64,000 bases of DNA from Burkholderiales bacterium PBB2 (lineage in GTDB: Bacteria > Pseudomonadota > Gammaproteobacteria > Burkholderiales > Burkholderiaceae_C): positions 62,001 to 126,000 of the forward strand of contig NKIM01000010.1 in the NCBI GenBank assembly GCA_002255955.1. The letters are read 5' to 3'. The notes beneath the pieces were generated by a model. It worked only from the letters and a program-made list of their open reading frames with translations, did no database searches and was not told the origin of the DNA. Below, one piece after another: positions 49,701 through 64,000 of the stretch. Made by a program: the position numbers and the translations under genes. Positions within the stretch are counted from its first letter, which is position 1; each line of letters begins with the position of its first letter.

Positions 49701-49747
49701 CGAGCCAGCCCCGAGTAGCGGCTGAACCTGTTCTTCTGTTGTCCCAT
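43736..49747 (-). CDS. Bacterial alpha-2-macroglobulin (YfhM type) with thioester
   Basis: Very large periplasmic protease-trap protein, 2003 residues. A positively charged 25-residue leader and a hydrophobic segment (near residues 30-45, ending L-S-A-A) form an export signal; there is no lipobox cysteine, unlike E. coli YfhM. Many macroglobulin-like beta domains follow, then the thioester motif C-L-E-Q at residues 1545-1548 in the context P-Y-S-C-L-E-Q-Q, then the helical thioester domain and C-terminal domain. A thioester-bearing alpha-2-macroglobulin covalently captures proteases entering through a damaged outer membrane while PBP1C repairs the wall; this pairing is established for the family. 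It is first gene of the pair with pbpC. Confidence 0.93.
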   Translation of the reverse strand: MGQQKNRFSRYSGLARDPRASRSPWAAPSLSGLLLLSLSLPALSAATLSVSPNAEVAEFHQLRVSFSEPVVPAGDPRLPAPVSLSCGGKSLKLDEGRWNNAREWVWRAGSPGSGVGPEQSCEVRVLDSFKAVGGALSGPQSFSFRTGPVRLQQVQPWPGSEIEEDQHFLLRFNGAISETQLRQRAWCEVEGLGERIPVQAVQGEALAAVLKSRGRSQAAARLPGSHWLLHCQRPLPQATKMRLLWSNSDAGPQAAAKRRADETHAYQVRRPFTAEFSCERERANVPCMPVRPMRVLFSAPVPREQALQLTLKSASGQLLKPLKPKGEESAELSMLEFPFPLAENAAFSLQMPAGIKDMTGRPLANAASFPLQVATGASPPLAKFAAAPFGVIEREPGGKEPALLPITMRHVQSDWGGGSAAQAPGEIRVKRLSSPVEVLAWYARVSRYHESQLSAREAGLPEGQWYETLQETDGRGQPVARKQMRHIASRELALLDKDPQAQTLKLPPPPTPPQGAESRPFEVIGLPLNEPGYHVVELRSPRLGQALLDKTAPMFVRTGVLVTNLGVHFKWSRENSLVWVTRLDRGQPVEGVEVVVHDCAGKPLWSGRTDAQGRALVQQALQPPGWDEKRCVAERGFFVTAQKADAGGGAPDMAFVFSNWNRGIEPWRFNLPTIYGAGSPEVRAHTVLDRSLLRVGETVSMKHFFRLETRQGLKLAAPEQLPTKLKLTHLGSGSEVELPISWPSPRSASSQWVIPAGAKLGSYSIELLRESRGAGDGEARSWMAGSFHVEEFRVPLISATLSAPKAVQVAPKELRLGAQLNYQSGGPMAQAPLKFSALLRPRSLRFPGYDEFSFEPPRGLGEAERFQDEGEGEEGAGPARDTRLVLDKQPAVTDRQGAAETVIKNLPALSRPSELLAELSYSDPNGEVRSVNQTVALWPSKLVLGLRTRSWSNNRGSLAFSALALDTAGKPVAGQRLEVKAQLRQTISSRKRMVGGFYAYDNRTELKDLGTVCSGSSDAQGLLACEAKLDVSGEVELVLSAKDSEGRPSQAAASAWMSQEGELWFAQDNDDRIDVLAEKKRYEPGQTARFQVRMPFREATALVAIEREGVIDTRVVKLTGRDPSFELKIERAWAPNVYVSVLALRGRIQQVPWYSFFSWGWREPLNWWAAWREGRNTPAPTAMVDLAKPSFKLGVAAVQVGLAEHQLQVKVSPEKSQYGVRETVRTRVQVTQDGRPVPGAELAFAAVDEGLLALRGNGSWELLPAMIQQRSWGVDTATAQSEIIGRRHYGRKAVAAGGGGGRAPTRELFDTLLLWRSTVKLDARGEALIEVPLNDSLTSFRLVAVADAGSHQFGTGQATVRVTQDLQVLSGLPPLVREGDEFQANLTLRNSSGRAMNLRAELQAQPQAADGAAPALPVLQLPAQSLKLAAGEARELSWTLKVPEGAQALQWQATATEQGAASPGPALARDQLRVSQRVLPAVPVQVWQASLSQLDGRMSLPVAPPAGAWPESGAKRGGVQLVLQRRLAGDLPGPRRFFETYPYSCLEQQTSKALGLHDAALWQAVLAAMPSYLDRDGLAHYFPPRPDEAPRGSERLTAYLLAAAHEAGRDIPVALREKMLQGLTAYIDGRISRPSWSPRSAELDADVRRLAALEALSRYGRATPAGLSTVNAKALGAWPTAAVIDWLNIHKRMAQAPQRAQRLAEAQALLRSRLSYQGTVLRFSTEESDAWWWLMDSADANASRLMLAVLDEAGWAEELPRLLQGSLGRQQRGAWSSTTANLWGVLALDKFAARFEGVKPAGKTEATLSPAPLQVLDWTRQPEGGKLLLPWNSGTLNVEHKGAGKPWLTVQSLAAVPLKQAASAGYRLQRTVQAVEQKVAGRWSRGDVLRVRLELEAGSDMAWVVLADPLPAGGAILGAERVAELSRSNEAADDARVRPSFEERSHEAWRAYFERLPRGKHVLEYTVRLNNAGRFQLPGTRVEAMYAPENFAELPQAALEVAP

Positions 49748-50047
49748 GCACCCTCCCAGGCGATCTGCGTCAAAGCGAGGGGCAGTCTAGCCGCTCTACT
49801 CCGGGCCTCCGGGCCCACGGCGGTCAACAAGATTGGGATTGAGCAACAGCTCGTGACAAGCCCCTGGCGGTGCCAGCACAAGAACCAGCAGTCGAGCTCG
49901 AGAGGATGCGGGGACGGGGATGGGGATGGGGATGGGGGTGGAAATAACTGCGCAAGAACCGCAAGCCCTCAGCACTCAGACCGATGGCAGAGTCCAAGCG
50001 CCAGTAGGAGCTGTAGCCGCGCTGAACACGAAGCCCGAGCCCAATGG
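49748..50047. other. Noncoding region upstream of the alpha-2-macroglobulin gene
   Basis: About 300 bases with no convincing gene in any frame. It should contain the promoter of the alpha-2-macroglobulin-pbpC operon (reading leftwards). The only structured feature I see is the run of G tracts at 49910-49938, described separately. Confidence 0.4.
49910..49938 (+). repeat. Tandem GGGGAT repeat, potential G-quadruplex
   Basis: Five runs of four or five G (49910-49913, 49916-49919, 49922-49925, 49928-49931, 49934-49938) separated by exactly two bases, mostly AT. This meets the usual sequence criterion for an intramolecular G-quadruplex with very short loops on the plus strand. It is 163 bases from the alpha-2-macroglobulin start and 160 bases from the tRNA fragment. 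Confidence 0.75.
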
Positions 50048-50078
50048 AAAAAGGGTCAGATGTTTTCACATCTGACCC
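50048..50078 (-). terminator. Rho-independent terminator of the original tRNA-Pro gene
   Basis: On the minus strand GGGTCAGATG pairs perfectly with CATCTGACCC around a 6-base loop and is followed by TTTTT. It lies 16 bases beyond the CCA end of the tRNA-Pro fragment, where a tRNA terminator belongs, so the native downstream sequence of the tRNA gene is preserved here. Confidence 0.9.
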
Positions 50079-50094
50079 GTCATCACTTTTTAAA

Positions 50095-50139
50095 TGGTCG
50101 GAACGGTGGGATTCGAACTCACTACCCCTTGCACCCCAT
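50095..50139 (-). other. tRNA-Pro(GGG) 3' fragment, attachment site (left end of the element)
   Basis: Read on the minus strand, these 45 bases are the anticodon-loop 3' half, variable loop, T-arm and acceptor 3' strand with encoded CCA of a proline tRNA with anticodon GGG; it starts GATGGGGTGCAAG and ends CGTTCCGACCA. The D-arm and 5' half are absent: homology stops sharply at 50139. The T-stem has one A-C mismatch (GTGAG against CCCAC), compatible with decay of a non-functional copy. An integrase follows 166 bases away. This is the displaced 3' end left by integration into a tRNA gene. Confidence 0.8.
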
Positions 50140-50270
50140 CCTATTAAACGCGGAATTTACGGGTTTTCCCTGGACGCTGACAAACGACGAATTCTCTTGA
50201 AAATCAATTAGTTATAACCGAAAGTTAATCTAACGACGTTCAGCGCGATTCGCCAAAATCCGCGTTCCGG

Positions 50271-50291
50271 TTTACCCATGGGTTTACCCAT
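50271..50291. repeat. Direct repeat TTTACCCAT just upstream of the integrase start
   Basis: TTTACCCAT occurs at 50271-50279 and again at 50283-50291, one helical turn (12 bases) apart, with the palindrome ACCCATGGGT across the junction. The second copy ends two bases before the GGAGG ribosome-binding site of the integrase, a position suited to autorepression or to binding by an excisionase. Function is inferred from position only. Confidence 0.4.
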
Positions 50292-50305
50292 TGGAGGCTA
50301 TCGAA

Positions 50306-51739
50306 ATGACTCGCTACCCCCGCCAAGGCAAAGGTCGCCGCTGGACGGCAAAAGAACTCCAGGCTGTTCCCGCCGCATGGAAAGGTGACACGTTAAGCGA
50401 CGGAGATGGTCTGAGCGGCGAAGTAAGAACGTCCTTGGACGGGGACGTGTCCGTCGCATTCCGCTATGCCTTCAAGTGGGAGGGCAAGGTGAGTTGGCAC
50501 TATTGCGGCACCTGGCCGATGAACAAGTTAGAGGCCATACGAACGGAGCGCGATCACGCCCGGTATCTGGTTAAATCCGGCGTTAGACCCACAGATGCCA
50601 AGCGAGCGTCAAAGATTGAAGCCCAAGCGCAGGTCGAAGCAGTGCTAGCGGAAGTGGCGCGCAAAGACGCAGAAGACCAACCTGTGCGTGTGATGTATGA
50701 GTCATGGCTACGCGATGGCGTTGCGCGCGCCGACGGTAACGCGGAGATACGCCGCAGCTTCGAGAAAGATGTCCTGCCCAGCATTGGCACCAAGCCGGTT
50801 CGCGAGGTCACTGAGCACGACCTGCGCGCCCTGCTTCGTCAAATGGTGAAACGTGGCGTGCATCGCCAGACCGTTCGCACCTACAACGACATCGGCCAGA
50901 TGTTCGCCTGGGCCGAGAAACGTAAACCGTGGCGCGGCCTGAGGGCCGACGGCAACCCCGCTGAGCTGTTGGAGATCGAGAAAATTCTCCCTTCCGACTC
51001 TGCCGCCGACAAACCGCGCGAGCGGGTTCTATCCGCAGAGGAACTGAGGGAGTTGCGTGACATCCTTGAAGGCATGGAGACCGTCTATGCAGCCTTGCCG
51101 GCCGGGCAGAAATACGGCACCGCCCGACCGCTCAAGAAAGAAAGCCAGCTCGCACTTTGGATCTGCCTCAGCACAGCATGCCGCATTGGCGAACTGCTGA
51201 TGGCCCGCTGGGAGCATGTCAACTTAGATAGCTGCGAATGGTTCGTGCCCGCAGACAACACCAAGACCAGCGTCGACTGGCGCGTCTACCTCTCCGACTT
51301 CGCATGCCGACAGTTCAAGACCCTGAAAGCACTGACGGGCGACACGCCGTACTGCTTCCCTGCTCGCACAGCCAAAGCAGAAGCAACGGCTCAGCATGTC
51401 TGCGTCAAGAGCGTCTCCAAGCAGATTGGAGACAGACAAACTCAGTTCAAGAACCGCAGTGGCCCATTGAAGAACAGGCGGAATGACAACAGCCTAGTGC
51501 TCGCCCAGGGAACAAAAGGCGAATGGACGCCACATGATCTGCGCCGGACAGCCGCAACCATGATGCAGGCCCTAGGCGTTCTTCCCGACATCATTGATCG
51601 TTGCCAGAACCACGTGCTAGCCGGCAGCCGGATTCGCCGGCACTACATGCACCACGACTACGCAGAAGAGAAACGAGCAGCTTGGGCAAGACTCGGAGAC
51701 CAAATTGAAACCGTCATCAACAATCGGCCAGCCGCCTGA
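50306..51739 (+). CDS. int: Tyrosine-type site-specific recombinase (integrase)
   Basis: Integrase of 477 residues of the P4/phage family that catalyses integration and excision at the tRNA-Pro site. The N-terminus is the arm-binding DUF4102-like domain, then the core-binding SAM-like domain (about residues 125-205), then the catalytic domain. The catalytic arginine is in T-A-C-R-I-G-E-L (near 293), H-D-L-R-R supplies His410 and Arg413, a third residue is in Q-N-H-V, and the nucleophile is Tyr447 (R-R-H-Y) or Tyr452 (H-H-D-Y). I chose the ATG at 50306 because GGAGG lies 8 bases upstream; a TTG five codons earlier overlaps that site. Confidence 0.92.
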   Translation: MTRYPRQGKGRRWTAKELQAVPAAWKGDTLSDGDGLSGEVRTSLDGDVSVAFRYAFKWEGKVSWHYCGTWPMNKLEAIRTERDHARYLVKSGVRPTDAKRASKIEAQAQVEAVLAEVARKDAEDQPVRVMYESWLRDGVARADGNAEIRRSFEKDVLPSIGTKPVREVTEHDLRALLRQMVKRGVHRQTVRTYNDIGQMFAWAEKRKPWRGLRADGNPAELLEIEKILPSDSAADKPRERVLSAEELRELRDILEGMETVYAALPAGQKYGTARPLKKESQLALWICLSTACRIGELLMARWEHVNLDSCEWFVPADNTKTSVDWRVYLSDFACRQFKTLKALTGDTPYCFPARTAKAEATAQHVCVKSVSKQIGDRQTQFKNRSGPLKNRRNDNSLVLAQGTKGEWTPHDLRRTAATMMQALGVLPDIIDRCQNHVLAGSRIRRHYMHHDYAEEKRAAWARLGDQIETVINNRPAA

Positions 51740-52032: not shown

Positions 52033-53937
52033 GTGAACAAAAACAACCAACAATCTGAGGCGGATCTCAGTCCGCCGTCTAGCGCGTGGGTGCGCTTTTT
52101 GCGTAGTTATGGTCCGACACCCAATAACCTCACGATGTTCGATGAATACGTGTCAGGTGCTTTGGGGCGGGCCAAGGTCAAGCCGATTAGCTTGTCTACT
52201 CCGCTGCTCGACGCAATGGTCAAGCACATCGAATCAAAGGCTCCAGGCTCGATCTTGATTGCCGGCACGGCGGGGGATGGCAAGACCTACCACTGCCGGG
52301 CCCTGTGGAGCCACATCGGCGGCGACCCCAAGGTGTGGGCAGGCAAGGGGAACGTGAAGGAGCATCGCTTGGCTGATGGTCGCCTGGCAGTGTTCATCAA
52401 GGACTTGTCCGAATTCAATGGGCAAGAGAGCGATCTCCCGCTACAGCGCCTCGAGAAATCGGTCCTCGGCGGCGACGATACGGAAATCGTGATCCTCGCG
52501 GCCAATCACGGCCAGCTCCTCGACCGCTTGCGAGACTTGGGCAAGCGGCAGGACCGCGTACATCCATTGAGGAAGCCCTTACAGGAACGTTTCCTGCAAG
52601 CCGGGCCAGCGCCCGATCGCCTGACCGTGTTCGACCTTAGTCGCTCGACCAGTCGAAAGACGCTAGATGAAGTGGCGAAAGTCGTTGCTGGACACCCAGA
52701 ATGGTCCAACTGTGCACGCTGCTCCTTGAAGGCTGACGGAAAGGTGTGCCCAATCGACGAGAACCGCCGCCGGATGCTCGGCGAGGACGACAACGGGCAG
52801 CTTGCGCGCCGTCTTGGAGACTTGGTCGAGATCGCCCGCCTCAACGGACTCCATCTGCCGATGCGCGATTTGCTGGCCTTGTGCTCCAACATGATCCTGG
52901 GCTATGCCGACGCGAAGGCGGCCAAGGAGAACCTGATGACCTGCGCCGACGTGCCCCAAATTCAAGAGGGCGGTCACATCGGCAAGGCAAGCATTTACGC
53001 CAACGCCTTCGGCGCAAATCTACCGAGGCGCAGAGCGTTCGACCGCCCTGTCTTCAAGGCCTTGGCGAGCTTTGGGGTTGGCGAAGAGACCACCAACGCA
53101 GCCGATGGGCTGCTGGTGTATGGCAAAGACGATTCGCGGCTCCAGGCCGACTTTATGCGTTTGGTGGCCAGCGACCTGGTGTACGGGGCGACGGCAGACT
53201 TCCGGGCGGCCCAAGACGCCTATCTCGAAGGCCACGAGGGCGCGCGCGTAGAGGATGGTCCCACTGAATTCATGGAGATGCTCGAGGACCAGCGCAGAAG
53301 GTTGTACTTCACTCTTCCAGAGTCCGAGCCGGGCTATCCCCGGTGGTCGATGACGGCCTTCCGCTTCGCAGGCGAATACTTAGAGATCATCGAATCGCTC
53401 AAGGCCAAAACCCCGGTTACTGAAGCCACACGTGGTCGAATCGCTCGAGGGCTGAACCGAATCATGACGGGCCTGCTCGTGGAGAACGTCGATCGCATCT
53501 TCATCGCCAGCTCCGGCGGTTTCACGCAGAGCCGGGTGAGTGTGCTCTGCGACCACGAGACGCCTTCACGCAGACAAAGCGGAGTAGGAATGGCCATCAA
53601 GCTAGACGAGGAGACCGGCCGCCCGCAGCTCGATGTCTCGCTCTCGCCAGGCCCCGGCAATTCGGTGGCCTTCGACCTGACACCCATCCGGCATGAATTC
53701 CTGTCTCGCGTCGCCGAGGGCGCGCTGCCGGCGAGTTTTTCGAACGAGTGCCTCGAAGACCTACTTGCCTTCAAAGCGAAACTGCTACGAAAGGCCGAGA
53801 TTGTCCGCAAGGCCAGATTTGCCGGCGATGACGATGAGGTCGGCGGAGAGTCCTCGGCCTTGACGCTGAACTTCATCGATATCGAGCCGGGTGGCCGAGG
53901 CTTCGCCCGCCCCGTTACCGTGAGGACCCCGGCATGA
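52033..53937 (+). CDS. AAA-type ATPase, DptF/SspF-like restriction subunit
   Basis: Protein of 634 residues starting at GTG. Walker A is G-T-A-G-D-G-K-T (residues 78-85). A Walker B-like strand (L-A-V-F-I-K-D-L-S-E-F, 119-129) and a sensor-like I-V-I-L-A-A-N-H-G (152-160) follow at AAA spacing. Cysteines C227-x2-C230-x8-C239 look like a metal or iron-sulfur site. Size, N-terminal ATPase, cysteine cluster and the genes that follow match DptF, one of three proteins of phosphorothioation-dependent restriction (DndFGH/SspFGH). It is the first gene of a five-gene operon; its stop overlaps the next start by four bases. Family assignment is by eye from motifs and gene order. Confidence 0.7.
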   Translation: MNKNNQQSEADLSPPSSAWVRFLRSYGPTPNNLTMFDEYVSGALGRAKVKPISLSTPLLDAMVKHIESKAPGSILIAGTAGDGKTYHCRALWSHIGGDPKVWAGKGNVKEHRLADGRLAVFIKDLSEFNGQESDLPLQRLEKSVLGGDDTEIVILAANHGQLLDRLRDLGKRQDRVHPLRKPLQERFLQAGPAPDRLTVFDLSRSTSRKTLDEVAKVVAGHPEWSNCARCSLKADGKVCPIDENRRRMLGEDDNGQLARRLGDLVEIARLNGLHLPMRDLLALCSNMILGYADAKAAKENLMTCADVPQIQEGGHIGKASIYANAFGANLPRRRAFDRPVFKALASFGVGEETTNAADGLLVYGKDDSRLQADFMRLVASDLVYGATADFRAAQDAYLEGHEGARVEDGPTEFMEMLEDQRRRLYFTLPESEPGYPRWSMTAFRFAGEYLEIIESLKAKTPVTEATRGRIARGLNRIMTGLLVENVDRIFIASSGGFTQSRVSVLCDHETPSRRQSGVGMAIKLDEETGRPQLDVSLSPGPGNSVAFDLTPIRHEFLSRVAEGALPASFSNECLEDLLAFKAKLLRKAEIVRKARFAGDDDEVGGESSALTLNFIDIEPGGRGFARPVTVRTPA

Positions 53938-55493
53938 GTGAGATCCTCAGACGGCCCGAGATTAAGAGCGTCGACTTCACTGTCGATGAGAACATCTGGG
54001 GCCACCGGCTCTATGACGAGCAGCTACCGCATTTAACGGTACTCGAGTTCCTCGGCGCTCTGGGCTCCAACCTAGACAAGCCGCTGCGGCCGCACGAAGG
54101 CCTCGGCGGTGCCTTCAAGTTTCAGCCGCAACGTCAGATTCGCCTGCGCGGGCTGCTCTTCAACAATCCATACGTCGAATCGATCTCTGAGAGCGCCCAA
54201 CCCGACGAAGAAAAGTGGCGGCAGTGGTTCGAGAAGTTCGCCCAAGGCTCGACCGGCAACGGTGATGGCGCCGAGGACATGAGCTACCTGCGCCATTCGT
54301 TCGCGAACTTCGACGACTTCGCCAAGGCCGTGGAGCTGCTGCGCTCGTCTTCGTTCGAGTCTCGAAGCAACAAGCGTTGGAGCTCCAAGTTCGTCTTTCC
54401 CTTTGGCCCTGACGCCCTCTACGAGGACTTGGAGATCGACTCCAAGGGCAAGATGAGCAACGACCGACGCTTCTTCGCCCGCACCGGTGAGCTGCTCTAC
54501 ATGATGCTCACGAGGGCCAAGCGCGGCGCCGAGCTCGGCGATCTGCTGGCCAAGCGCCTCTTCGATCGCGAGGCTCCGATGAATCGGCTGGCTCGCGCGA
54601 TGCAAGGAGCACCGCAGAGGGCCGAAGACTCTCGGCAGTCGGGCTACCTGCCCGAGGTCGCCAACCCGCGCTTCGACCAGATTTGCGAAGACTGGCTGTC
54701 GATCCTGGCTAAGGACATGCCGATTTACGACGCCTTGGAGCATCTGATCGCCATCTCCGGGCTCAACATGCTGCTCTACTTCCTCGAGCGGGCCAAACGC
54801 ACGGCAGGCGACGACGATGCAGTAGAGATCGTCTGCGAGATTGTCTCCAAGGAACGCACCAAAGTACGGGCACTCTCCGGCGACAGCTACCAGTTCAACC
54901 AAGGCCTGCCCGCCAAAGCGGTTCGCGCCCATGTCGAGTCAATACGAATGACCGACCTTTGGGGCAAAGCCGCCGCCAGCGAGTTCCCCGAAGCCGAGCG
55001 CGTGAGGCTCATGCGGGAGCGATTCCAATGGCCGTCAGCCGAAGGTGGGGACGATGAAGACTACTCGGGCGAGAACCCCGACATCTTGGTCGGCAAGCTT
55101 ATCGAGCTGGCGCTCGCTCGCCATGAACAGCACGTCGGCAAGATCCACGCATCCTGGTCGCGGGCGATTGGACTGAGCTCGCGACGCCTTTCCCGCCGGA
55201 CACGCTACGCCCCCAACGACCGCCTCTTGAAGTCAATCGTGGTGACCATCGTCGACGATCGAATGCAGTTCGACGAGTTTCTGGCCGAAGCCAAACGTCG
55301 CTATGGCTTGGTCCTTGGCGATGCCGAAGGGGCGCGCCTGCTCGACGCGAAGCTGGTCGACCAAGAGGAGCTCAGCGAGAACCGCGACAACCTCGAAACT
55401 AGGCTCGTTGGGTTGGGCCTGGTCCGCAGGCTTTCTGACTCCTGCTCTTTTGTTGAAAACCCGTTCGCGTTCAAGGGAGAGGCTGCATGCTAA
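53934..55493 (+). CDS. DptG-like subunit of a phosphorothioation-dependent restriction module
   Basis: Protein of 519 residues with no P-loop or nuclease motif that I can see. It is mixed alpha/beta, with charged helical stretches. Near the C-terminus the segment R-Y-A-P-N-D-R-L-L-K-S-I-V followed by M-Q-F-D-E-F-L-A-E-A-K-R-R-Y-G has the look of a winged-helix or DNA-contacting domain. It is assigned as DptG only because it sits between a DptF-like and a DptH-like gene, overlapping both (four bases with the first, seven with the second), and has a fitting size. By itself it would be a hypothetical protein. Confidence 0.55.
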   Translation: MSEILRRPEIKSVDFTVDENIWGHRLYDEQLPHLTVLEFLGALGSNLDKPLRPHEGLGGAFKFQPQRQIRLRGLLFNNPYVESISESAQPDEEKWRQWFEKFAQGSTGNGDGAEDMSYLRHSFANFDDFAKAVELLRSSSFESRSNKRWSSKFVFPFGPDALYEDLEIDSKGKMSNDRRFFARTGELLYMMLTRAKRGAELGDLLAKRLFDREAPMNRLARAMQGAPQRAEDSRQSGYLPEVANPRFDQICEDWLSILAKDMPIYDALEHLIAISGLNMLLYFLERAKRTAGDDDAVEIVCEIVSKERTKVRALSGDSYQFNQGLPAKAVRAHVESIRMTDLWGKAAASEFPEAERVRLMRERFQWPSAEGGDDEDYSGENPDILVGKLIELALARHEQHVGKIHASWSRAIGLSSRRLSRRTRYAPNDRLLKSIVVTIVDDRMQFDEFLAEAKRRYGLVLGDAEGARLLDAKLVDQEELSENRDNLETRLVGLGLVRRLSDSCSFVENPFAFKGEAAC

Positions 55494-58400
55494 CCGACCG
55501 CATCATCGGGCGCGTCGGCGCGGACCTCCTCGCCAAGCGCATTTCCAACCCCGACCAGCCGGGGGATTCTGCAGCACTCTTCCGGCTAGACAAGCTCTCG
55601 TCGAACCAGATCGCAGCGGTGGCGAGGTCGATCCTCGCCAATCCTGATCTGCTCACTCGCGTGGATCTCATGATCCCAGAGGCTTTGGTCGATGGCCAGG
55701 GCCTCCCGCCTGAGATCCTGATCTCGCACAACGCCGGCTACGTCCGCAACAACGCGGCGACAGCAAAGGCGGCGATCCTCACGGCCAACGGCAACGAGCA
55801 CAACTTGGCCGACACGCTCGGACACGTCATGGCGATTGGCGCCAAGGAGATGCGCGCTGATCCTGAACCTTGGGTCGAGGCGGCCTTGCACGCGGGCGGC
55901 GTTTCGCCCGTTCCGGACGATCGCGTTGTGTTCCATGCGGCGCTGTGCGGCCTACTGGCTTCTTCCGAGTTATCGCTCGTACAGCTTGGTGAGTTTTGCT
56001 CCGAAATCGTCGAGGCCATATCGACTCGCGGCCTAGCCATCCGCGACGCGGTGGGTTTCGCCCTGCCTCGCGCTGGCCTGCCCCGCGACAGCGCTCTGTT
56101 CTCTAACGCCAAGAGCTTTGGTGCGTTTCCGAAGCCATGGCAGAAGGCCTTCGCAAAGCTCTACACACAGCGCGCACCGTTGCTCAAGAAACTTCGCCAG
56201 AACGGCCAGCCCCTGGATCCTGAGGATCTGGCCGAGCGCATTGCAGCCAACGCCGCCGAGATCGCCGAATCCGCTCGCCTTGCTCTAAACGCTTTCGCTG
56301 CGGCCCCCGCTGGTGACCATGAAGCGGCCTACGCCCTGGCTCAGTTCGAATGGGAGGCCGATGGTGTCTACCTAGCCTTCGACAAGCCCAAGGAGAAGCA
56401 GCTCGGTTTGGCCGATGCCACAGTTCGCTTTTTCGACCACGACTGCGACCAAGAGAATTCGCTCGATCAGGAGGGTCGAAAGCTGCTGGAGGACTTGAAG
56501 TCGCGCGAACGCCGCTCCGACTTCACCGAAGACGACGAGGAATTCTTCGTCAAATACCGCAGGCTGCTCGAACAGGACGTCAAGCTATGTGCACGTTGGG
56601 AGAAGGCTCTCTACGGCAAGCCGATTGAGTGCAACGATTTCTTCGACGGTTTCGCCCGCGTGGTCAACAGTCTGCATGCGGGACTGCGTAACGCCGAGGG
56701 CGATCGGATCCTGCGCTTCACCGTGACCAAGGGTCGCAAGGAGTGGCGCGAACGCTTCAACTACGACGCCGGCAGCTATTTCTCAGCGATGTATCGAGGC
56801 TTGAAGGAGCTGATGGGCTCCAAGGCCGAATGGAACGTGGAGCGCCTCGGCAACGCGAGCCTGCCGGACCCTCTTTTCGAATACGAGGCTTTCTTCGCCA
56901 AAGAGAAGGAACTACGCAACGACAAAAAGAACAAGGTCCGCCCGAATTCGTCGCTCTCGCGCGTGGCCTTGCAGATCAAGTTCGACGTGGCCCTGATCCA
57001 AGTCTTCAAGGACAAGGAGACGGTACTCGCCAAGACCCAACTCCTGTGGAGCTACAAGCCCACGTCCATTGGCCTGTCGATGGTCGCCGACATGCGCCGC
57101 CTGCTGGAGAAGGGCGCGGTCGGCTGCACAGAAGTCCCGCGTCGCCTGGTCAGCAAAAAAGGTGGGGTACAGAACGTCTCTCTGCTCGACACCGGCACCT
57201 TGGAGGCCACCTACTCCACAGACGCCGGCTCGCTGGTACCTGCCGCCAACAAGCTGCGCAGCCTGCGGGCCGACATCAAGTCCAGAATCAAGGATCTGGC
57301 TGAGGGCGGATACCTGACCCCATTGCAACGCGACGAAGTCAAGGCGTCCTGGGACAAGTTTGAGGAGGACTACATCAAGGCGATGGAGGACTTCGTCTCC
57401 ATCGGCCTGCACGGCGAGGCCGTCATGCGCCAGGCCGAGTCCTTCGGCTCGCTGATGTCGACCCTCATGTCACAGGCTCGCGGCGATGTTTGCCGTTCGC
57501 GCCTGGTCGCTGAGATCCTGTCGGTCGGCACCGCCCGTGTAGCCGGCGACAACCCCGCCTTGATCGTCCCGCCTTGGCATCCCGAGCGCATGAAGGCGCT
57601 GGCAGTGAAGTCTCGAAGGGTGGCTGGCTTTGCCACTCATCTGCTCTCAAGCGCCAGCATCCTTTATGGCGACCGCGAGATCTTCATGCGAGAACTCTCC
57701 GACGAGATTGCCCACCCGTTCTACCCCGAGATCGCCGTCCTCAACCGGGCCGGCGCTCCGACACTGGTCTCGGAGAGCAGCACAGTCAACGGCTATAGCC
57801 TCTTGGAGTCGCCAACGCGCGGCGCGGAGGACGCCATGACTGACGTGGATCCGGCAGCAGCCGCAAAGCAAGCGCGCGAGCTTTTGGAGCGCTATGTCGG
57901 TCTGCAGCCCCATGAGGCCTCGAACCTCAGTGTTGTGCTCTACAACGCCGACGCGGCCGAACTGCCACTGGCGACGGTGCGTGAGCTTTCGTCGATCCAC
58001 GAAGACGGTAAGTTGCAATGCAGCGTATCCGTGCGCCACTCGGATCCTGCGAAGCTTCGCAGGGTCTACGGCGAGCTAGTCAATAAGGCGGGGGATGACC
58101 CGGATCTGCCCGTGGTCAGCGAGACCAGCGACAACTTCATGTCCAAGCTGCGCATCTCGGTCACGCCAATCTCGGCGACTCCTGTCGAGAGCGCCAGGGG
58201 CTTTAAAGCTTTCGACGTGGCCTTCTTGCATGATGTGGTGTCGCGTGCCGCCCAGTCCGAATGGCTCTCGGTGCCGTGGACCAACGACCGGCCGAACCTC
58301 GAACACGCCCCATCGCGCTGGTCCTACCGCAGCGTCTCAGGCGAAAACGAGCTCAAATCGACAACCTACTTGGCCTGCCCTTGGCAGACAGCCTCCGGTT

Positions 58401-60907
58401 GGGCCTACATTTCCGCCGTGGCCGCCGTTTGTCGCCAGCTCGACGCGTTGCCTGGCGAGCGCTACCTGCCAGCCCGGCGCATTTCGTTGCAAAGCCCTGC
58501 CTTGGCGTCGATGATCAAGGACGCCCACGAGCTGGCCGAATGGGTCGCCACCTACGACGAGCTGCTCGACAAGCGCCAGCTCCAGCACAACGCCATCACG
58601 GTCGTTCGCTACCGCCGCGGCTCCACCAACGGCCGCAACATGATCGTGAGCTCTACATCCGAGCTGCGCCTGTTGGGTGTGCTGGTGCGCCGCCGCTTGG
58701 ATGAGTTGAATTTGCAGCTCGACGCCTCGGAAATACAAGCCGCTGCCGACAAGGCGAAGCGCGATGCACTTTCAGTCTCCGGCGACATCGTGCTCCGGGC
58801 AGCAAAGCGCGGCGTCTCCGCAGGCGAAATGATCGGTCTAGTGCTCAGCCGCTATCTACTCGCCGAAGAGTTCAGAGCCGCGGCGGGCGGGGGCCAGGTC
58901 TTGACCGCCTATTTTCTGCTTGACGACTACGCAAGCTGGCTCTCGCAGCCTGAGAGCCGCATCGCCGACATTCTTGCTCTCAATGTCGAGGAGCGTGAGG
59001 AGGTCGTCCGGGTGGTCATCTCGATCGTCGAGTCGAAGTATGTCGCAACCGACGGCCTAGCCAAGGCGCGGCGCGATTCCAAGGATCAGCTCCTTGCCAC
59101 GCTGGGCATGTTCCGTGAGGCGCTCTTTGGCGCGCCAGGCCGGCTCGATCGCGACGTATGGCTTGCTCGCTTGGCCGATATGCTTATCGACGCGGACATC
59201 CCGCCGGGGATGACAGGCCTGATGGAACGCGCCCGTGCGAAGCTTCGTGAGGGAGATGTGGAGATTTCGCTTCGCGGCTACTCGCACGTATATGTCCACA
59301 ATTCAGACGTTGGCTCGGCCTCGGCGTCCGACCAGGAGCTTTTGGAAGAATCAGACGGTGTAAAGGCCTGGCAAGAAGTCTTCGATCGCCCAGACCTTCG
59401 CAAACTCGCCGAGGCCTATGCCAAGGGCGCCGGCGCACTCGACGCCCGATCGGGTCTCGGTGCCCATCGACCGTGGGACGGACACGACTTCAAGAAGCCA
59501 GCGACTCGCGTCCCATGGCTCGCTGCTATGGGGCAACTAGCCAGCGGTGTTAACGACTCCATCATCAAAGCCGCTACAGAGCCCGAGAAAGTTGACGGGA
59601 TGCCTACGGCCAGCATCCAAGAGCAAGAGCCTGTAAAGCCTGCGCAAAGCCCTTCCCCAACCGAGGCCGCGGTGCCTGAATTGGCCCATGAGGTGGCCAC
59701 CTCGTCTGCCTCGTCCACGAACCTCGGCGCTGCGCTCTCCGCGCTCGTGACTTCCAAGTCTGCTAGCGGTAAGCAGTCGGATACCGACCGCGAGGAGTGG
59801 GCCCAGGATGTCACCAAGAAACTGAAGGCTGCCCTCAACAGCTACGGGTTGCAGGCTGCAATCCTCGGTACTCGGCTGACTCCAAATGGCTGCCTCGTGC
59901 GCTTGGCTGGCTCCGACCGGCTGCGAGTCGAGGACATCGAGAACAAGCGCACGCAGCTGTTGACCACGCACGCGATAAACCTCGTGACAGTCCAACCCAA
60001 GCCGGGCGAGATCGTGGTGACGGTCGCTGGCTCCAAACGCCAGGCCGTGTCGCTGTGGGAGCTGTGGTCGCGCCGCGAGCTCAACCGCAACGTTGCTGGC
60101 ATCAACACGTCCTTCCTCTTGGGGCTCCAAGAAATCAACGGCTCGCTGCTGTATCTAAACCTCGGCGCAGAGTTTGGCGGGCTCTCGTCCCACGAGCCGC
60201 ATTCGCTGGTGGCCGGCGCGACCGGCAGCGGCAAGTCGGTGCTGATTCAAGCGATGCTGCTGGATATCGCCGCGACCAACCCGAAGGATCTAGCGCAGAT
60301 CGTCCTGATTGACCCCAAGATGGGCGTGGACTACGCCCCCTTAGCCGATTTGCCGCATATGCGCGAGGAAATCGTCACTACCAAGGAGAAGGCCAGCGAG
60401 GTCCTAGAAGCGCTGGTGCAGGAGATGGAAGACCGCTACCGCGCGTTCGCCAAGGCACGGGCCCGCGACCTACCGACCTACAACGCCAAGGTCACGGTAG
60501 AGGAGCGATTGCCAATGGTCTTCCTCGTCCACGACGAGTTTGCGGACTGGATGCTAGATGACGCTTACAAAGCGGCTGTGGGCGCTGCCGTGCAGCGTCT
60601 GGGTGTGAAGGCTCGCGCGGCCGGCATTCACCTTATCTTCGCAGCTCAGCGACCCGACAAGGACGTGATGCCGATGCAGCTTCGCGAGAACCTCGGTAAC
60701 AGGCTGATCTTAAAGGTGTCCAGCGAGGCGACCTCCAAGATCGCGCTCGATCGGCCTGGCGCTGAGCTGCTGCTTGGCAGAGGGCACTTGGCTGCCAAGC
60801 TCAACGGGGAGCAGGGGCTAGTTTTCGCGCAAGCCCCGTTCCTGTCGGATCAAGAGATTGAGGCCGCCGTAGCAGCGATCCGTGCTGACAACGAATCGGC
60901 GGCTTGA
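55487..60907 (+). CDS. Giant DptH-like protein with C-terminal FtsK/HerA-type ATPase
   Basis: Protein of 1806 residues. The last 300 residues are an FtsK/HerA-type motor: Walker A A-G-A-T-G-S-G-K-S (Lys1583), D-P-K-M-G-V-D-Y after it, Walker B M-V-F-L-V-H-D-E-F (Asp1683, Glu1684) and the sensor strand L-I-F-A-A-Q-R-P-D. This fits DptH, the translocase-like restriction subunit that probably moves along DNA in search of unmodified sites. The first 1500 residues show no motif I recognise. A proline/serine/alanine-rich linker (near residues 1365-1420) separates the two parts. It overlaps the DptG-like gene by seven bases and is followed after 29 bases by a DUF262 gene. Confidence 0.7.
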   Translation: MLTDRIIGRVGADLLAKRISNPDQPGDSAALFRLDKLSSNQIAAVARSILANPDLLTRVDLMIPEALVDGQGLPPEILISHNAGYVRNNAATAKAAILTANGNEHNLADTLGHVMAIGAKEMRADPEPWVEAALHAGGVSPVPDDRVVFHAALCGLLASSELSLVQLGEFCSEIVEAISTRGLAIRDAVGFALPRAGLPRDSALFSNAKSFGAFPKPWQKAFAKLYTQRAPLLKKLRQNGQPLDPEDLAERIAANAAEIAESARLALNAFAAAPAGDHEAAYALAQFEWEADGVYLAFDKPKEKQLGLADATVRFFDHDCDQENSLDQEGRKLLEDLKSRERRSDFTEDDEEFFVKYRRLLEQDVKLCARWEKALYGKPIECNDFFDGFARVVNSLHAGLRNAEGDRILRFTVTKGRKEWRERFNYDAGSYFSAMYRGLKELMGSKAEWNVERLGNASLPDPLFEYEAFFAKEKELRNDKKNKVRPNSSLSRVALQIKFDVALIQVFKDKETVLAKTQLLWSYKPTSIGLSMVADMRRLLEKGAVGCTEVPRRLVSKKGGVQNVSLLDTGTLEATYSTDAGSLVPAANKLRSLRADIKSRIKDLAEGGYLTPLQRDEVKASWDKFEEDYIKAMEDFVSIGLHGEAVMRQAESFGSLMSTLMSQARGDVCRSRLVAEILSVGTARVAGDNPALIVPPWHPERMKALAVKSRRVAGFATHLLSSASILYGDREIFMRELSDEIAHPFYPEIAVLNRAGAPTLVSESSTVNGYSLLESPTRGAEDAMTDVDPAAAAKQARELLERYVGLQPHEASNLSVVLYNADAAELPLATVRELSSIHEDGKLQCSVSVRHSDPAKLRRVYGELVNKAGDDPDLPVVSETSDNFMSKLRISVTPISATPVESARGFKAFDVAFLHDVVSRAAQSEWLSVPWTNDRPNLEHAPSRWSYRSVSGENELKSTTYLACPWQTASGWAYISAVAAVCRQLDALPGERYLPARRISLQSPALASMIKDAHELAEWVATYDELLDKRQLQHNAITVVRYRRGSTNGRNMIVSSTSELRLLGVLVRRRLDELNLQLDASEIQAAADKAKRDALSVSGDIVLRAAKRGVSAGEMIGLVLSRYLLAEEFRAAAGGGQVLTAYFLLDDYASWLSQPESRIADILALNVEEREEVVRVVISIVESKYVATDGLAKARRDSKDQLLATLGMFREALFGAPGRLDRDVWLARLADMLIDADIPPGMTGLMERARAKLREGDVEISLRGYSHVYVHNSDVGSASASDQELLEESDGVKAWQEVFDRPDLRKLAEAYAKGAGALDARSGLGAHRPWDGHDFKKPATRVPWLAAMGQLASGVNDSIIKAATEPEKVDGMPTASIQEQEPVKPAQSPSPTEAAVPELAHEVATSSASSTNLGAALSALVTSKSASGKQSDTDREEWAQDVTKKLKAALNSYGLQAAILGTRLTPNGCLVRLAGSDRLRVEDIENKRTQLLTTHAINLVTVQPKPGEIVVTVAGSKRQAVSLWELWSRRELNRNVAGINTSFLLGLQEINGSLLYLNLGAEFGGLSSHEPHSLVAGATGSGKSVLIQAMLLDIAATNPKDLAQIVLIDPKMGVDYAPLADLPHMREEIVTTKEKASEVLEALVQEMEDRYRAFAKARARDLPTYNAKVTVEERLPMVFLVHDEFADWMLDDAYKAAVGAAVQRLGVKARAAGIHLIFAAQRPDKDVMPMQLRENLGNRLILKVSSEATSKIALDRPGAELLLGRGHLAAKLNGEQGLVFAQAPFLSDQEIEAAVAAIRADNESAA

Positions 60908-60936
60908 GTCGCGCAACTGTGCGCTGACAATTAGGG

Positions 60937-61983
60937 ATGAATATGAAGATCAAACAACACAACTGGACAGTTTCAAAGCTATTCACAGACCGGCCAGGCA
61001 TCAACTTGAATCCGACATGGCAACGGGGTGCTGCATGGAAAGATCACAGGAAGATTTTGCTGATCGACTCGATCTTGCGCGGGATGGACATCCCCAAGGT
61101 CTATCTGCGCAAGCTTCCCGCCAATGGGGCTCACAAGCACGACGCGGTTGACGGGCAGCAACGGATCCGAGCAATTTGGGATTTCAGGGCAGGTGTCTTC
61201 TCCCTCAACCATCCGGATCCGCTCCCGCCGGTCGGCGAACACCCCATCCATGGGCTAGCGTTCTCCGAGCTGCACAAAAGCCTGCGCGACCGGTTCGACG
61301 CCTTCGAGATCAGCGTCGCCGAGATCACTTCTGCGGACAACGATGAGATCACAAATCTTTTTGCGCGGCTGCAGCTTGGCGTCGCACTCAATCCCGCGGA
61401 GCTTCGCAACGCGATGTTGGCCCCGGCTCGGCACATCATCGATTCGATTGCGACCGGCCATCCCTTCTTCGATTCGACAAAAATCTCCGACACGCGATAC
61501 AAGCGCCAGGACTTCGTCACTCACGTGTTCGCGATGGCCGCATACAAGGGCCAAAAGAACATCAAGGCTCCAGACTTGAAAAAGATGATTCTTGAGTTCG
61601 GTCCCGACAAAGCTCCGGATCTCTTGGACTTTTCGTTGGCAGTGAACGATGCACTGACTGTGCTAGGAGAGGTCGACGGACTATTGAAGCGTCGGATCAC
61701 GCAGAAGTGGCTCTTCGTCGACTTGGTCTGGCTGATCATTCAACAGCAGACCGCTGGTCTCGAAGTCAATGCCGACGACCTGGCCGAGAGCTTCATGGAG
61801 TTCGATGAATTACGCAGGAAATATACGAGCAAGCCCGAGGACTTGTTGCAGGCAGAGGGAACGACGAAACAGGTTCGCCTCAACAAGGCCCTTTACGACT
61901 ACATCATGGCCTTCCGCGCACAAGGCGCGACCCATGCAAACTTGAAGACTCGGAACACCGCGCTTCGAGCCTACTGTCTGTAA
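60937..61983 (+). CDS. Stand-alone DUF262 (DGQQR, ParB-like) protein
   Basis: Protein of 348 residues with a DUF262 domain. The signature runs N-P-T-W-Q-R-G-A-A-W (residues 25-34), L-I-D-S-I-L-R-G-M-D-I-P-K (42-54) and D-G-Q-Q-R (72-76). The domain is related to the ParB/Srx fold and in several restriction proteins (GmrS/GmrSD type) it binds or hydrolyses nucleoside triphosphates. The HNH/DUF1524 half of GmrD is missing, so this is not a complete type IV enzyme. The second half is helical and unassigned. It has a second possible ATG two codons later (60943). It lies in the same operon as the module above. Confidence 0.85.
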   Translation: MNMKIKQHNWTVSKLFTDRPGINLNPTWQRGAAWKDHRKILLIDSILRGMDIPKVYLRKLPANGAHKHDAVDGQQRIRAIWDFRAGVFSLNHPDPLPPVGEHPIHGLAFSELHKSLRDRFDAFEISVAEITSADNDEITNLFARLQLGVALNPAELRNAMLAPARHIIDSIATGHPFFDSTKISDTRYKRQDFVTHVFAMAAYKGQKNIKAPDLKKMILEFGPDKAPDLLDFSLAVNDALTVLGEVDGLLKRRITQKWLFVDLVWLIIQQQTAGLEVNADDLAESFMEFDELRRKYTSKPEDLLQAEGTTKQVRLNKALYDYIMAFRAQGATHANLKTRNTALRAYCL

Positions 61984-61994
61984 AAAGGTTCGAC

Positions 61995-62882
61995 ATGGCA
62001 TTTGATCCAAACAAGATTCCTGTGGCGCTGCGGCAGGCCTATGGGGCACGGCGTTGCGCGGTTCTGGTTGGCGCTGGCGCATCAAAAGGCGCAGGGTTGC
62101 CGCTCTGGGGTGAGCTGCTCACCAAGATGATTGACTCTGCCGTTGCCCACAAGTTAATCACTCCGGAGCGAGAGGCCGAGTACCGGGACTTGGCGACCCG
62201 GACAGAAAAATTCCTAATGGTGGCATCCGGACTCAAGGACGATCTTCGGAGCCACTTCGATCAATTCATCGAAGAGACGTTCGTCGCACCCAAACCTCAG
62301 CCAACCAAATTACATGAGGCGCTAGTCGCGCTGGACAAGCTCCAGTTCGTTCTGACGACAAACTACGACACACTCCTCGAGCGCTCATTCAGGAGGCGCA
62401 ATGACGACGTGTCGGTGTGCAACTTCACCGACGCGGGCGAGGTTCAGCGTCGATTGTCCCGGCGCGAGTTCTTCATCCTTAAAGCTCACGGCGACGCGAC
62501 GAAGCTTGCCGATAAGATCGTCTTGACAGATGTGGACTACCGGAACTTGCTGTTTGGTCAGCGGGCCTATCAGAGCATGCTTTCCACCATGTTCACAATG
62601 TTCACGTTTATCTTCGTCGGGGCTTCGATGACCGACCCGGAAATCTCACTGCTGCTGAGCTATATCGCGGATTCCTTTTCGCCCAATGCGGGGCCAACAC
62701 ACTACGCATTGATGGCCGACGAGGACGTGACTCAAGTTGAGAAGGACCGCTGGTTCAAGGATTTCAAAATCCAATTGATCACCGTTAGCAAGCAGGACAA
62801 CTACGCCGAGCTCACAGAGTTTCTCCATGCGCTGGGAGCTTCAGCGGCGCCTGCCGCAGCTGACGCTCCAGCGGCTCACTAG
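61995..62882 (+). CDS. SIR2-domain protein, candidate NAD-consuming defence effector
   Basis: Protein of 295 residues consisting almost only of a SIR2-like domain. NAD-binding and catalytic residues are intact: G-A-G-A-S (26-30), the G-L-P-L-W loop, T-T-N-Y-D (121-125, conserved Asn123) and K-A-H-G-D with His165. This SIR2_2-like class occurs in bacterial defence proteins, where it depletes NAD+ instead of deacetylating proteins; there is no zinc-binding cysteine set typical of sirtuin deacetylases. AAAGG precedes the ATG, 11 bases after the DUF262 gene. No fused sensor is present, so recognition must come from partners. The last 15 residues are alanine/proline-rich. Confidence 0.85.
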   Translation: MAFDPNKIPVALRQAYGARRCAVLVGAGASKGAGLPLWGELLTKMIDSAVAHKLITPEREAEYRDLATRTEKFLMVASGLKDDLRSHFDQFIEETFVAPKPQPTKLHEALVALDKLQFVLTTNYDTLLERSFRRRNDDVSVCNFTDAGEVQRRLSRREFFILKAHGDATKLADKIVLTDVDYRNLLFGQRAYQSMLSTMFTMFTFIFVGASMTDPEISLLLSYIADSFSPNAGPTHYALMADEDVTQVEKDRWFKDFKIQLITVSKQDNYAELTEFLHALGASAAPAAADAPAAH

Positions 62883-62950
62883 TGAAGTGTCTAGACTATC
62901 TTGGACAGCCTCGGGGCGCGATGGGCTGACGGCTCCGTAACCTGTAGTAC

Positions 62951-63793
62951 TTACTTGTGGCAAACGGCGCAGGATCCGTTGCCCTCGTCGACCCCGTAAA
63001 TGTCGTCGATGTCGTCCGGGCAGGCTTTCACAGGTCGCAGCGGATTGATGGGGATGGCCTTGAGCATGCGCGCTCGGCGGATCCCGTATTCGGCCTGGAT
63101 TTCCGCGACGCGCTCCGGCTGCTCCATGTCGGAGAGCGATTCGCCCTTGGACCAGGTGAACGGCGAGCCGTGTTCCAAGGCGTCCTTTTCGAGCGCTTTG
63201 GCTGCCTCGTAGGCGCCAGGGTGTTTCTCTCGCAGGCGCACCCACTCGATTTTTTGCTGGAAAAAGCAGAAGGTGCAGCCACTGCGCGAGCGCCACTCGT
63301 AATACTTGGGGTAGCCAACGCCGGAGTTCTCCAAGATGTCGATCACGCCGGCCTTGTCGATGCCGGCCTCTCGGAAGGGCAGCTTGACGAAGAGGTTCTC
63401 AGCTTTGGCCGCGTAACCCTCGCGGTAGTCCTCATCGGCGCGGATGGCCACATAGGACGTAACTTTGTCACCGGCAGCAAGCATCGGCCTAACCCACTCC
63501 TCGAACGGGGCTAGCTTCAACTTTCGGGTGCACCAGCGCGAGTTGGGGTTGGGCAGGAAGTGGTTGTACTGGCGCAGCCAAAACCTGAAGTCGCGGTTGG
63601 GGTTCAACCGCAGGATCGGCTTGTGCAGCTTGCCCTCCAGCTTTGCCAAAAACTCATAGACTTCAGGCAACTCTTCTCCGGTGTCGGTGTAGAAGTAGTC
63701 GATGTCGATTTCAGGGTGCTTGGCAGCCATGTAGACGGCAAGCGCCGCGCTATCCTTTCCGCCTGAGATCCCTAGAACATGCCGCTCAGCCAT
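62951..63793 (-). CDS. PAPS-reductase-family protein, DndC/SspD-like sulfur transferase
   Basis: Protein of 280 residues with an ATP-pyrophosphatase PP-loop S-G-G-K-D-S (residues 10-15). Six cysteines are set for a metal or iron-sulfur site: C88 (S-R-W-C-T-R-K-L), C173-x2-C176 (G-C-T-F-C-F-F-Q), C258 and C275-x2-C278 at the extreme C-terminus. DndC and SspD, which activate DNA sulfur in phosphorothioation, are of this family; DndC is larger (over 400 residues), so the size is closer to SspD. Assimilatory PAPS reductases are similar in size but lack this cysteine pattern and context. It is convergent with the SIR2 gene and overlaps the preceding gene by eight bases. Confidence 0.7.
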   Translation of the reverse strand: MAERHVLGISGGKDSAALAVYMAAKHPEIDIDYFYTDTGEELPEVYEFLAKLEGKLHKPILRLNPNRDFRFWLRQYNHFLPNPNSRWCTRKLKLAPFEEWVRPMLAAGDKVTSYVAIRADEDYREGYAAKAENLFVKLPFREAGIDKAGVIDILENSGVGYPKYYEWRSRSGCTFCFFQQKIEWVRLREKHPGAYEAAKALEKDALEHGSPFTWSKGESLSDMEQPERVAEIQAEYGIRRARMLKAIPINPLRPVKACPDDIDDIYGVDEGNGSCAVCHK

Positions 63794-64000
63794 TGGCTCC
63801 CTCCATGTCGCTTGACGCCAGCTTCATCCCGACCTTGGCCAGGATGGCCAGCAATACGTCGGTTCCCAAGCCTTGGCCCGCGAGCATCGAAGCGAGCTCG
63901 TCGGCCTTGGCATCCACAGTCTTACGATGCCGATCTGAAATCGCGAACGAACGCGAGATCGTCTTAGTGTTTGCGCCCGCGCCGATAACGACCGCGATGG
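63786..64000 (-). CDS. 3' end of an unidentified gene upstream of the sulfur-transferase gene
   Basis: The last 71 codons of an open frame that enters from beyond the right edge. The readable part contains I-A-V-V-I-G-A-G-A-N-T-K near the edge and ends S-S-D-M-E-G-A-N-G before TGA. It is mostly helical with no motif I recognise. Its stop codon lies eight bases inside the start of the PAPS-reductase-like gene, so the two are one operon. From context it could be the gene before dndC or sspD in a modification operon, but I do not assign it. Confidence 0.6.
   Translation of the reverse strand, partial: IAVVIGAGANTKTISRSFAISDRHRKTVDAKADELASMLAGQGLGTDVLLAILAKVGMKLASSDMEGANG

Follow-up and report, generated by a model that had tools for sequence, protein, structure and literature searches.

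Closest described systems and the Burkholderiales locus

The closest described relatives of the locus examined here include the phosphorothioate (PT)-dependent defense systems, which are summarized below. In SspABCD-SspFGH systems, IscS works with SspBCD in V. anguillarum FF-93, and the SspFGH proteins are toxic to cells lacking PT (PMC8092258). The same study, by Wang et al. (2021), counted 2,678 occurrences of sspBCD, of which 2,211 (given as 83.9%) lacked both sspFGH and sspE in the vicinity, and included restriction partners yet to be discovered among the possible explanations. In SspABCD-SspE, the PT writers are accompanied by a DUF262 domain that carries a DGQQR motif and shares a chain of ~770 to 820 residues with an HNH (DUF1524) nickase (PMC9646914, PMC13251355). 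DndI of the IscS-DndBCDE-DndI system is also a DUF262-HNH fusion, but of Dnd-type modification; it is co-transcribed with dndFGH and functions independently, acting with the modification genes alone (PMC9646914, PMC13251355, PMC11662687). According to the same three papers, DUF262 domains hydrolyze nucleoside triphosphates (NTP) via DGQQR, and a nearby P-x-Y-Q patch senses PT in SspE and DndI. Here, we describe an Ssp locus from Burkholderiales bacterium PBB2 (contig NKIM01000010.1, positions 62,001 to 126,000; this 64,000-nucleotide stretch is referred to as the window), in which a stand-alone DUF262 protein is paired with a SIR2 protein. We estimate at about one half the probability that this is a PT defense locus in which a DUF262 reader controls a SIR2 NADase, the two forming a cassette in a variable effector slot.

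Judged by its protein families, the locus is a complete SspBCD-SspFGH system of the Ssp rather than the Dnd/Dpt type. The forward strand carries sspF (52033..53937; a P-loop protein of 634 residues with a GTG start; PADLOC SspF, E = 9.3e-258; AAA domains below the cut-off in Pfam), sspG (53934..55493; 519 residues; PADLOC SspG, 1.5e-225), and sspH (55487..60907; 1,806 residues; PADLOC SspH, E = 0; FtsK_SpoIIIE, 6.7e-34, with the C-terminal FtsK/HerA motor at approximately residues 1567 to 1723), followed by the genes for the DUF262 (GmrSD_N) protein (60937..61983; 348 residues; 7.9e-16) and the SIR2 protein (61995..62882; 295 residues; SIR2_2, 1.3e-27), both above the Pfam cut-offs. Overlaps of 4 bases (sspF/sspG) and 7 bases (sspG/sspH) and gaps of 29 bases (sspH-DUF262) and 11 bases (DUF262-SIR2) separate the members of this operon. 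It converges on the contiguous genes sspD (62951..63793, reverse strand; a PAPS-reductase-like PP-loop protein of 280 residues; PADLOC SspD, 5.6e-134), sspC (reverse strand; 1,112 residues; PADLOC SspC, E = 0), which has its 3′ end in the window at 63786..64000 and extends to 67124 in the window-extended numbering, and sspB (67117-68100 in that numbering, wholly past the window end; 327 residues; PADLOC SspB, 6.7e-119). Between the convergent operons, the candidate terminator hairpin is no better than in shuffled sequences (z = −0.14); a promoter scan found none, and terminator-like sites were fewer (7) than the shuffle mean (10.7).

The preliminary description of this DNA had given the same sizes and coordinates for the six open reading frames (ORFs) and had called for a look beyond position 64,000, where sspC and sspB are indeed present. 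Its proposal of a PT-type restriction module tied to a DUF262-SIR2 pair holds, with the Ssp family scores and the conserved linkage described below, and the short PP-loop gene that it took for a sulfur transferase is sspD, DndC giving a weak match (2.6e-7 at best). Its naming of the large proteins as DptF, DptG, and DptH does not hold: SspF, SspG, and SspH models match strongly, and the Dnd/Dpt assignment was dropped after TIGR03238, TIGR03236, and TIGR03237 (dnd_assoc_3, 1, and 2, respectively) failed to match any of the three at E ≤ 1 in an NCBIfam scan. The same models found nothing genome-wide at E ≤ 0.001 and were also silent in all 14 control genomes, so that the genome-wide scan has no positive control. 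SspG and SspH (53934-60907) additionally match MADS proteins (MAD7 in NCBIfam, 9.5e-8, below the cut-off; mad8, 7.2e-22), hinting that the restriction parts of the methylation-associated MADS and of Ssp may be akin.

No sspA was seen beside sspB in the window-extended stretch (L002; L numbers denote fetched loci), and a chromosomal IscS above the curated cut-off is encoded on another contig (C17) of the same genome; its putative PT role would correspond to that of IscS in V. anguillarum FF-93. The window thus shares SspB, SspC, SspD, SspF, SspG, and SspH, all with strong scores, with SspABCD-SspFGH (PMC8092258), but has the DUF262-SIR2 pair within its FGH operon, whereas neither DUF262 nor SIR2 is mentioned in the text of that paper.

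Association of the DUF262-SIR2 pair with Ssp genes

SIR2-type loci were found in beta- and alphaproteobacteria and on one Bacteroidota plasmid, and all 8 of them have SspB, SspC, and SspD alongside; SspFGH lies within the fetched stretch in 7. A tblastn search of 72,556 plasmids with both proteins was evaluated for the best 40 of 46 DUF262 records and the best 40 of 177 SIR2 records. The top three DUF262 matches listed, which cover 99% of the query at 50.7, 50.7, and 32.3% identity, are in the same three records as the top SIR2 matches (62.5, 62.5, and 41.2%; the other listed rows do not exceed 33.2%), and all three records have Ssp genes adjoining the pair. Sinorhizobium americanum CCGM7 shows the order DUF262-SIR2-sspF-G-H facing sspD-C-B-A; a second S. 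americanum record gives identical match values and, from the matches alone, has DUF262, SIR2, SspD, and SspH at the same spacing. Hymenobacter sp. YIM 151858-1 (L004) has the genes arranged as sspB-C-D-DUF262-SIR2 and shows no sspFGH within 37 kb, which indicates that the pair tracks the PT writers and not FGH.

The preliminary description had made its case dependent on a conserved linkage between the pair and the large genes, and such linkage is present. When the DUF262 protein alone was used to query 84,980 species genomes, a scan that brings only close relatives within reach, four loci were returned, each showing the complete order F-G-H-DUF262-SIR2 facing D-C-B. Among 399 genomes of the same family, the SIR2 profile selected three at E ≤ 1e-40, namely, the window, the L005 genome (recovered again as L066), and the new L067, each with the full eight-gene order. 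Among 369 genomes of the class, six passed E ≤ 1e-15 with this profile; apart from that of the window, they hold five distant SIR2 proteins (59 to 125 versus 563 bits) with no DUF262 found by profile within ~1.5 kb on either side. Orthologous pairs away from Ssp genes were not found in any of the collections searched (plasmids, species genomes, class, and family). As controls, the surroundings of nine plasmid-borne DUF262 genes of different types, in stretches of 7.5 to 7.9 kb and one of 24.6 kb, showed no SIR2, kinase, or Ssp genes by annotation or profiles; one of these plasmids (L058) has sspD ~46 kb away. Two scans of viral contigs found no relative of either protein, phage records gave weak matches (one record for SIR2 and 22 for DUF262, with all identities below 60% among the matches listed, the best 10 of 22 for DUF262), and E. 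coli genomes had no match to the DNA of the pair.

Joint inheritance and swapping of DUF262 and SIR2

The DUF262-SIR2 pair is inherited and swapped as a unit, as seen from protein identities, divergence correlations, DNA breakpoints, and conflicting trees. Between L005 and L067, SspF, SspG, and SspH are 100, 99, and 96% identical and SspD, SspC, and SspB are 98% identical each, with only 46% identity in DUF262 and 58% in SIR2; the window and L008 show the opposite pattern, with 61, 65, and 67% for SspF, SspG, and SspH and 87 and 90% for DUF262 and SIR2. Across seven loci (21 pairs, which are not independent), the divergence of DUF262 correlates with that of SIR2 at r = 0.99, but each of the two correlates with the six Ssp proteins at 0.16 to 0.34; the corresponding values are 0.99 to 1.0 within F-G-H, 0.97 to 0.99 within B-C-D, and 0.90 to 0.94 between the two groups. 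DNA similarity breaks off at the 3′ ends of sspH and sspD. In approximately unbiased (AU) tests, the FGH and BCD data reject the cassette grouping (P = 3e-64 and 8.6e-6, respectively), and the cassette rejects theirs (P = 0.004). Fourfold-degenerate sites, tried for dating the exchange, were 25 to 42% identical in distant pairs, were taken as saturated, and were left unused. Gene content, operon structure, linkage to PT writers, intact motifs, co-inheritance, and exchange as a unit are all directly supported.

Kinase-type cassettes and the effector slot

A second DUF262 lineage was found in 7 Ssp loci, 6 of which have an adjoining protein kinase gene downstream of it: Pseudanabaena (L009), two Asticcacaulis plasmids (L011 and L012), and the genome loci L019, L029, and L068 (Pfam Pkinase, run on the latter two, 1e-19 and 4.2e-22). 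The arrangement in L068, sspF-G-H-DUF262-kinase facing sspD-C-B, parallels that in the window. In Sphingopyxis (L013), the kinase-type DUF262 gene follows sspH and precedes an insertion sequence element, no kinase is seen, and sspD lies ~40 kb away on the same plasmid. SspB, SspC, and SspD are all present in 5 of the 7 loci (in L009, SspD is in two frames and SspC ends at the stretch edge), and SspFGH is within the fetched stretch in 3. Among the plasmid matches to the kinase-type DUF262 (best 40 of 658 records), five exceed 42% identity, all with Ssp genes; the rest are at or below 35.3%. In a tree with long branches among its non-Ssp rows, the 7 SIR2-type rows and the 6 kinase-type rows each form one group, with support of 99/96 and 98/98, respectively. 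A common Ssp-specific ancestor of the two was rejected (AU test, P = 0.00029), and because they do not form one clade, DUF262 seems, as far as this tree can tell, to have been recruited to Ssp on at least two occasions in addition to SspE. Two of these loci and one other also have a DndB-like gene next to sspA/sspBCD (L011:22653-24980, L012:20664-22991, and L080:6801-9191).

The contents of the slot were surveyed starting from SspD, found in 11 of 398 genomes of the phylum and 12 of 399 of the order at E ≤ 1e-40 and in 21 of 399 of the family at E ≤ 1e-60. These searches yielded 41 distinct genomes and 42 loci including the window; the other 41 loci were fetched and annotated with local profiles, some proteins also with Pfam and PADLOC. 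L037 (no SspB or SspC) and L035 and L070 (contig ends) were left out before the count, which gave 39 evaluable loci. The slot holds SspE in 8 of them, facing sspD as the pair does in the window; a GHKL ATPase pair in 8; a helicase-GHKL(-PLD) set alone in 5 (the set also occurs in L019, L023, and L029); DUF262-kinase in 3; DUF262-SIR2 in 3; SspFGH only in 6 (L073 shows SspH alone before the contig end, and L086 has a weak divergent match); and a divergent second set in 1 (L018). Profiles recognized nothing in the remaining 5, including L020, where Pfam indicates helicase and PLD, and L080 with its DndB-like gene. Some loci of the DUF262-SIR2, DUF262-kinase, SspE, GHKL-pair, and helicase-GHKL types contain SspFGH, or SspGH in truncated stretches; given this spread over five slot types and the varied contents, the slot is a site of effector exchange, of which DUF262-SIR2 is an uncommon occupant.

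Several other occupants merit mention. The GHKL pair (L030:8561-12909, L028, L031, L034, L085, L075, L077, and L084), which ties with SspE as the commonest occupant, consists of a GHKL ATPase of ~780 to 820 residues and an uncharacterized partner of 640 to 690 residues; the two partners run (L030 and L077) had no Pfam or PADLOC match. The helicase/GHKL/PLD-nuclease set recurs next to SspBCD in L021:6616-10968, L025, L076, L081, L083, L019, L023, L029, and L014, with no PLD gene seen in L076 and L029. L018:956-13229 has a divergent SspG/H- and SspB/C-like set (279 and 1,500 residues) facing ordinary sspDCB, L078 and L079 are two Ssp-FGH-SspE loci with equal profile scores on two contigs of one genome, and in L033:3771-5329 sspG appears as two overlapping ORFs.

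Predicted functions of the two proteins

The SIR2 protein retains the motifs G26AGAS, T121TN123YD, and H165GD. Asn123 and His165, which we take to be the catalytic residues, are invariant in all 7 aligned SIR2 sequences, the window included. Its nearest PDB chains include those of ThsA (1.2e-12), DSR2 (one entry being H171A), and KomC, defense NADases that have the SIR2 domain with the catalytic Asn and His in common with it; in the window, the partner is instead DUF262 and the setting a PT locus. With both residues kept and these chains matched, NADase is the likeliest activity predicted for this protein.

In alignments, the DUF262 protein shows P26-T-W28-Q29-R30 and D72-G-Q-Q-R76. Compared with the P-x-Y-Q patch, Pro and Gln are retained and Tyr is replaced by Trp. 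No second Pfam domain, including HNH/DUF1524 (GmrSD_C), was detected in it up to E = 1. Membership in SspE was ruled out, as the protein has 348 residues, no DUF1524 domain, and no match to the SspE model up to E = 1; like SspE, it is a DGQQR-bearing DUF262 protein encoded next to PT writers, but it stands alone, has a SIR2 partner in place of the nickase, and shows weak similarity to the SspE N-terminal domain. From DndI it differs in belonging to an Ssp locus and in having its SIR2 partner on a separate chain. Searches by sequence up to E = 1 found no related solved structure.

Proposed mechanism and alternative explanations

In the mechanism that we propose, SspBCD, together with the chromosomal IscS, would write PT marks, and SspFGH would damage unmarked DNA, an activity described for another Ssp system. 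Acting as an NTPase, the DUF262 protein would check DNA for PT marks in the manner of the DUF262 domains of SspE and DndI; with no HNH nickase on its chain, it would control the separate SIR2 enzyme instead. Unmarked phage DNA would cause SIR2 to be released or licensed, NAD+ would be consumed, and phage growth would stop in the cell. PT sensing, NADase activity, phage defense, and the direction of the switch are what we infer for the pair. We prefer a DndI-like switch, in which PT would keep the effector off, over an SspE-like one, in which PT would license it, because an NADase that needed PT alone would endanger every uninfected cell. The genetics favors PT control: the pair accompanies the PT writers even without FGH.

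A number of observations weigh against this assignment. The pair is rare, being found in 3 of 39 evaluable Ssp loci. SspE and DndI have Tyr as the aromatic residue of the PT-sensing patch, whereas 7 of the 8 SIR2-type loci have Trp and one (L004) has Tyr. P-x-aromatic-Q-R and DGQQR are also present in some non-Ssp DUF262 proteins, so that the motifs are compatible with PT sensing but do not prove it. By profile, the DUF262 protein is nearer to NsnA and to the kinase type than to the N-terminal domain of SspE, the kinase type reaching 99.7% probability and the SspE domain 84.9% over 57 columns only. AlphaFold models of the DUF262 and SIR2 proteins are poor (predicted local distance difference test [pLDDT] values of 50.7 and 39.4), and the long branches mentioned above qualify the two-lineage tree. 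Finally, the nearest PADLOC model for the DUF262 protein is NsnA (3.6e-31, residues 3 to 210), the DUF262 gene of Menshen. In Menshen, that gene pairs with a predicted OLD nuclease (PMC10952713), whereas the neighbors in the window are SspH and SIR2.

The NsnA match is also the starting point for the view that the pair is a PT-blind abortive-infection system, a Menshen-like sensor with an NADase, for which the Ssp locus is merely an insertion hotspot. Such a system would fit the history of the cassette, which is separate from those of FGH and BCD, the many unrelated cassettes accepted by the slot, and the presence of Lamassu and PD-Lambda-1 genes in the same island. We nonetheless regard it as rather unlikely: no orthologous pairs were found off Ssp genes in the collections searched, two DUF262 lineages have been recruited into the same slot, and that slot also hosts SspE, a proven PT-dependent effector. 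The location of the pair in one operon with sspFGH in the window and its close relatives, and the presence of sspFGH in 7 of 8 SIR2-type loci, recall the suggestion in the preliminary description of cell suicide if restriction fails, i.e., that SIR2 kills only when SspFGH is inhibited or fires on DNA damage made by SspFGH. Working on the comparative genomics of PT systems, Rakesh et al. (2024) proposed backup suicide effectors, namely nucleases, in Dnd neighborhoods (PMC10853773); neither SIR2 nor DUF262 appears in the main text of that paper. This fail-safe role is improbable, because the stretches fetched for 5 of the 15 SIR2- and kinase-type cassette loci (L004, L011, L012, L019, and L029, the first being the only SIR2-type one) contain no SspFGH; cassette divergence, moreover, does not track FGH (r of ~0.2). 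The last position in the FGH operon, together with the toxicity of SspFGH to PT-lacking cells (PMC8092258), could also be read to mean that the pair is no effector but restrains the locus, regulating SspFGH or guarding against its toxicity upon PT loss. That, however, would be very hard to reconcile with the pair occurring without FGH in the L004 stretch, with the effector-like appearance of its slot counterparts SspE and kinase, and with SIR2 motifs that fit NADases, and we give it hardly any weight.

Surroundings of the locus

The island is bordered on the left by a tyrosine integrase gene (50291..51739, forward strand; Phage_integrase, 6e-15; Arm-DNA-bind_3, 1.9e-7). Just before it, on the reverse strand at 50095-50139, is a sequence that we take to be a tRNA 3′ end, with matching copies in relatives; ARAGORN reported no tRNA in the window. 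The GC content is 57 to 63% to the right of this site versus 67 to 72% to the left. No exact repeat of at least 14 bases that could represent an att pair was found between 49701-50300 and the following 33 kb. Further along the same island, L002:8144-13044 (window-extended 72043-76943) encodes a PD-Lambda-1-like protein (5.7e-131) and Lamassu LmuA and LmuB (4.3e-36 and 7.2e-115, respectively).

Implications for PT-based immunity

SspFGH, SspE, and DndI were already known. Within the literature covered, which excluded preprints and most subscription papers, no paper was found that describes DUF262-SIR2 or DUF262-kinase pairs as part of Ssp; one paper names both SIR2 and SspB, in separate sections. 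The near-identical loci L005/L066 and L067, which carry different cassettes, amount to a natural swap experiment. More tentatively, and at somewhat less than even odds, PT marks may gate cell-level effectors as well as nucleases, through a stand-alone DUF262 reader that hands its self/non-self decision to an interchangeable partner (SIR2 NADase or protein kinase), the allelic cassettes being exchanged among Ssp loci that are otherwise nearly identical. If the control of SIR2 by PT is real, this would be, to our knowledge, the first form of immunity to have NAD+ depletion governed by a DNA backbone mark, and it would explain a part of the many sspBCD loci reported without sspE or sspFGH, for which the window locus and its relatives offer concrete partner candidates in a defined slot. 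These loci suggest that PT immunity may employ NAD+ loss or phosphorylation besides DNA damage and that immunity based on sulfur marks can also act by shutting down the infected cell.

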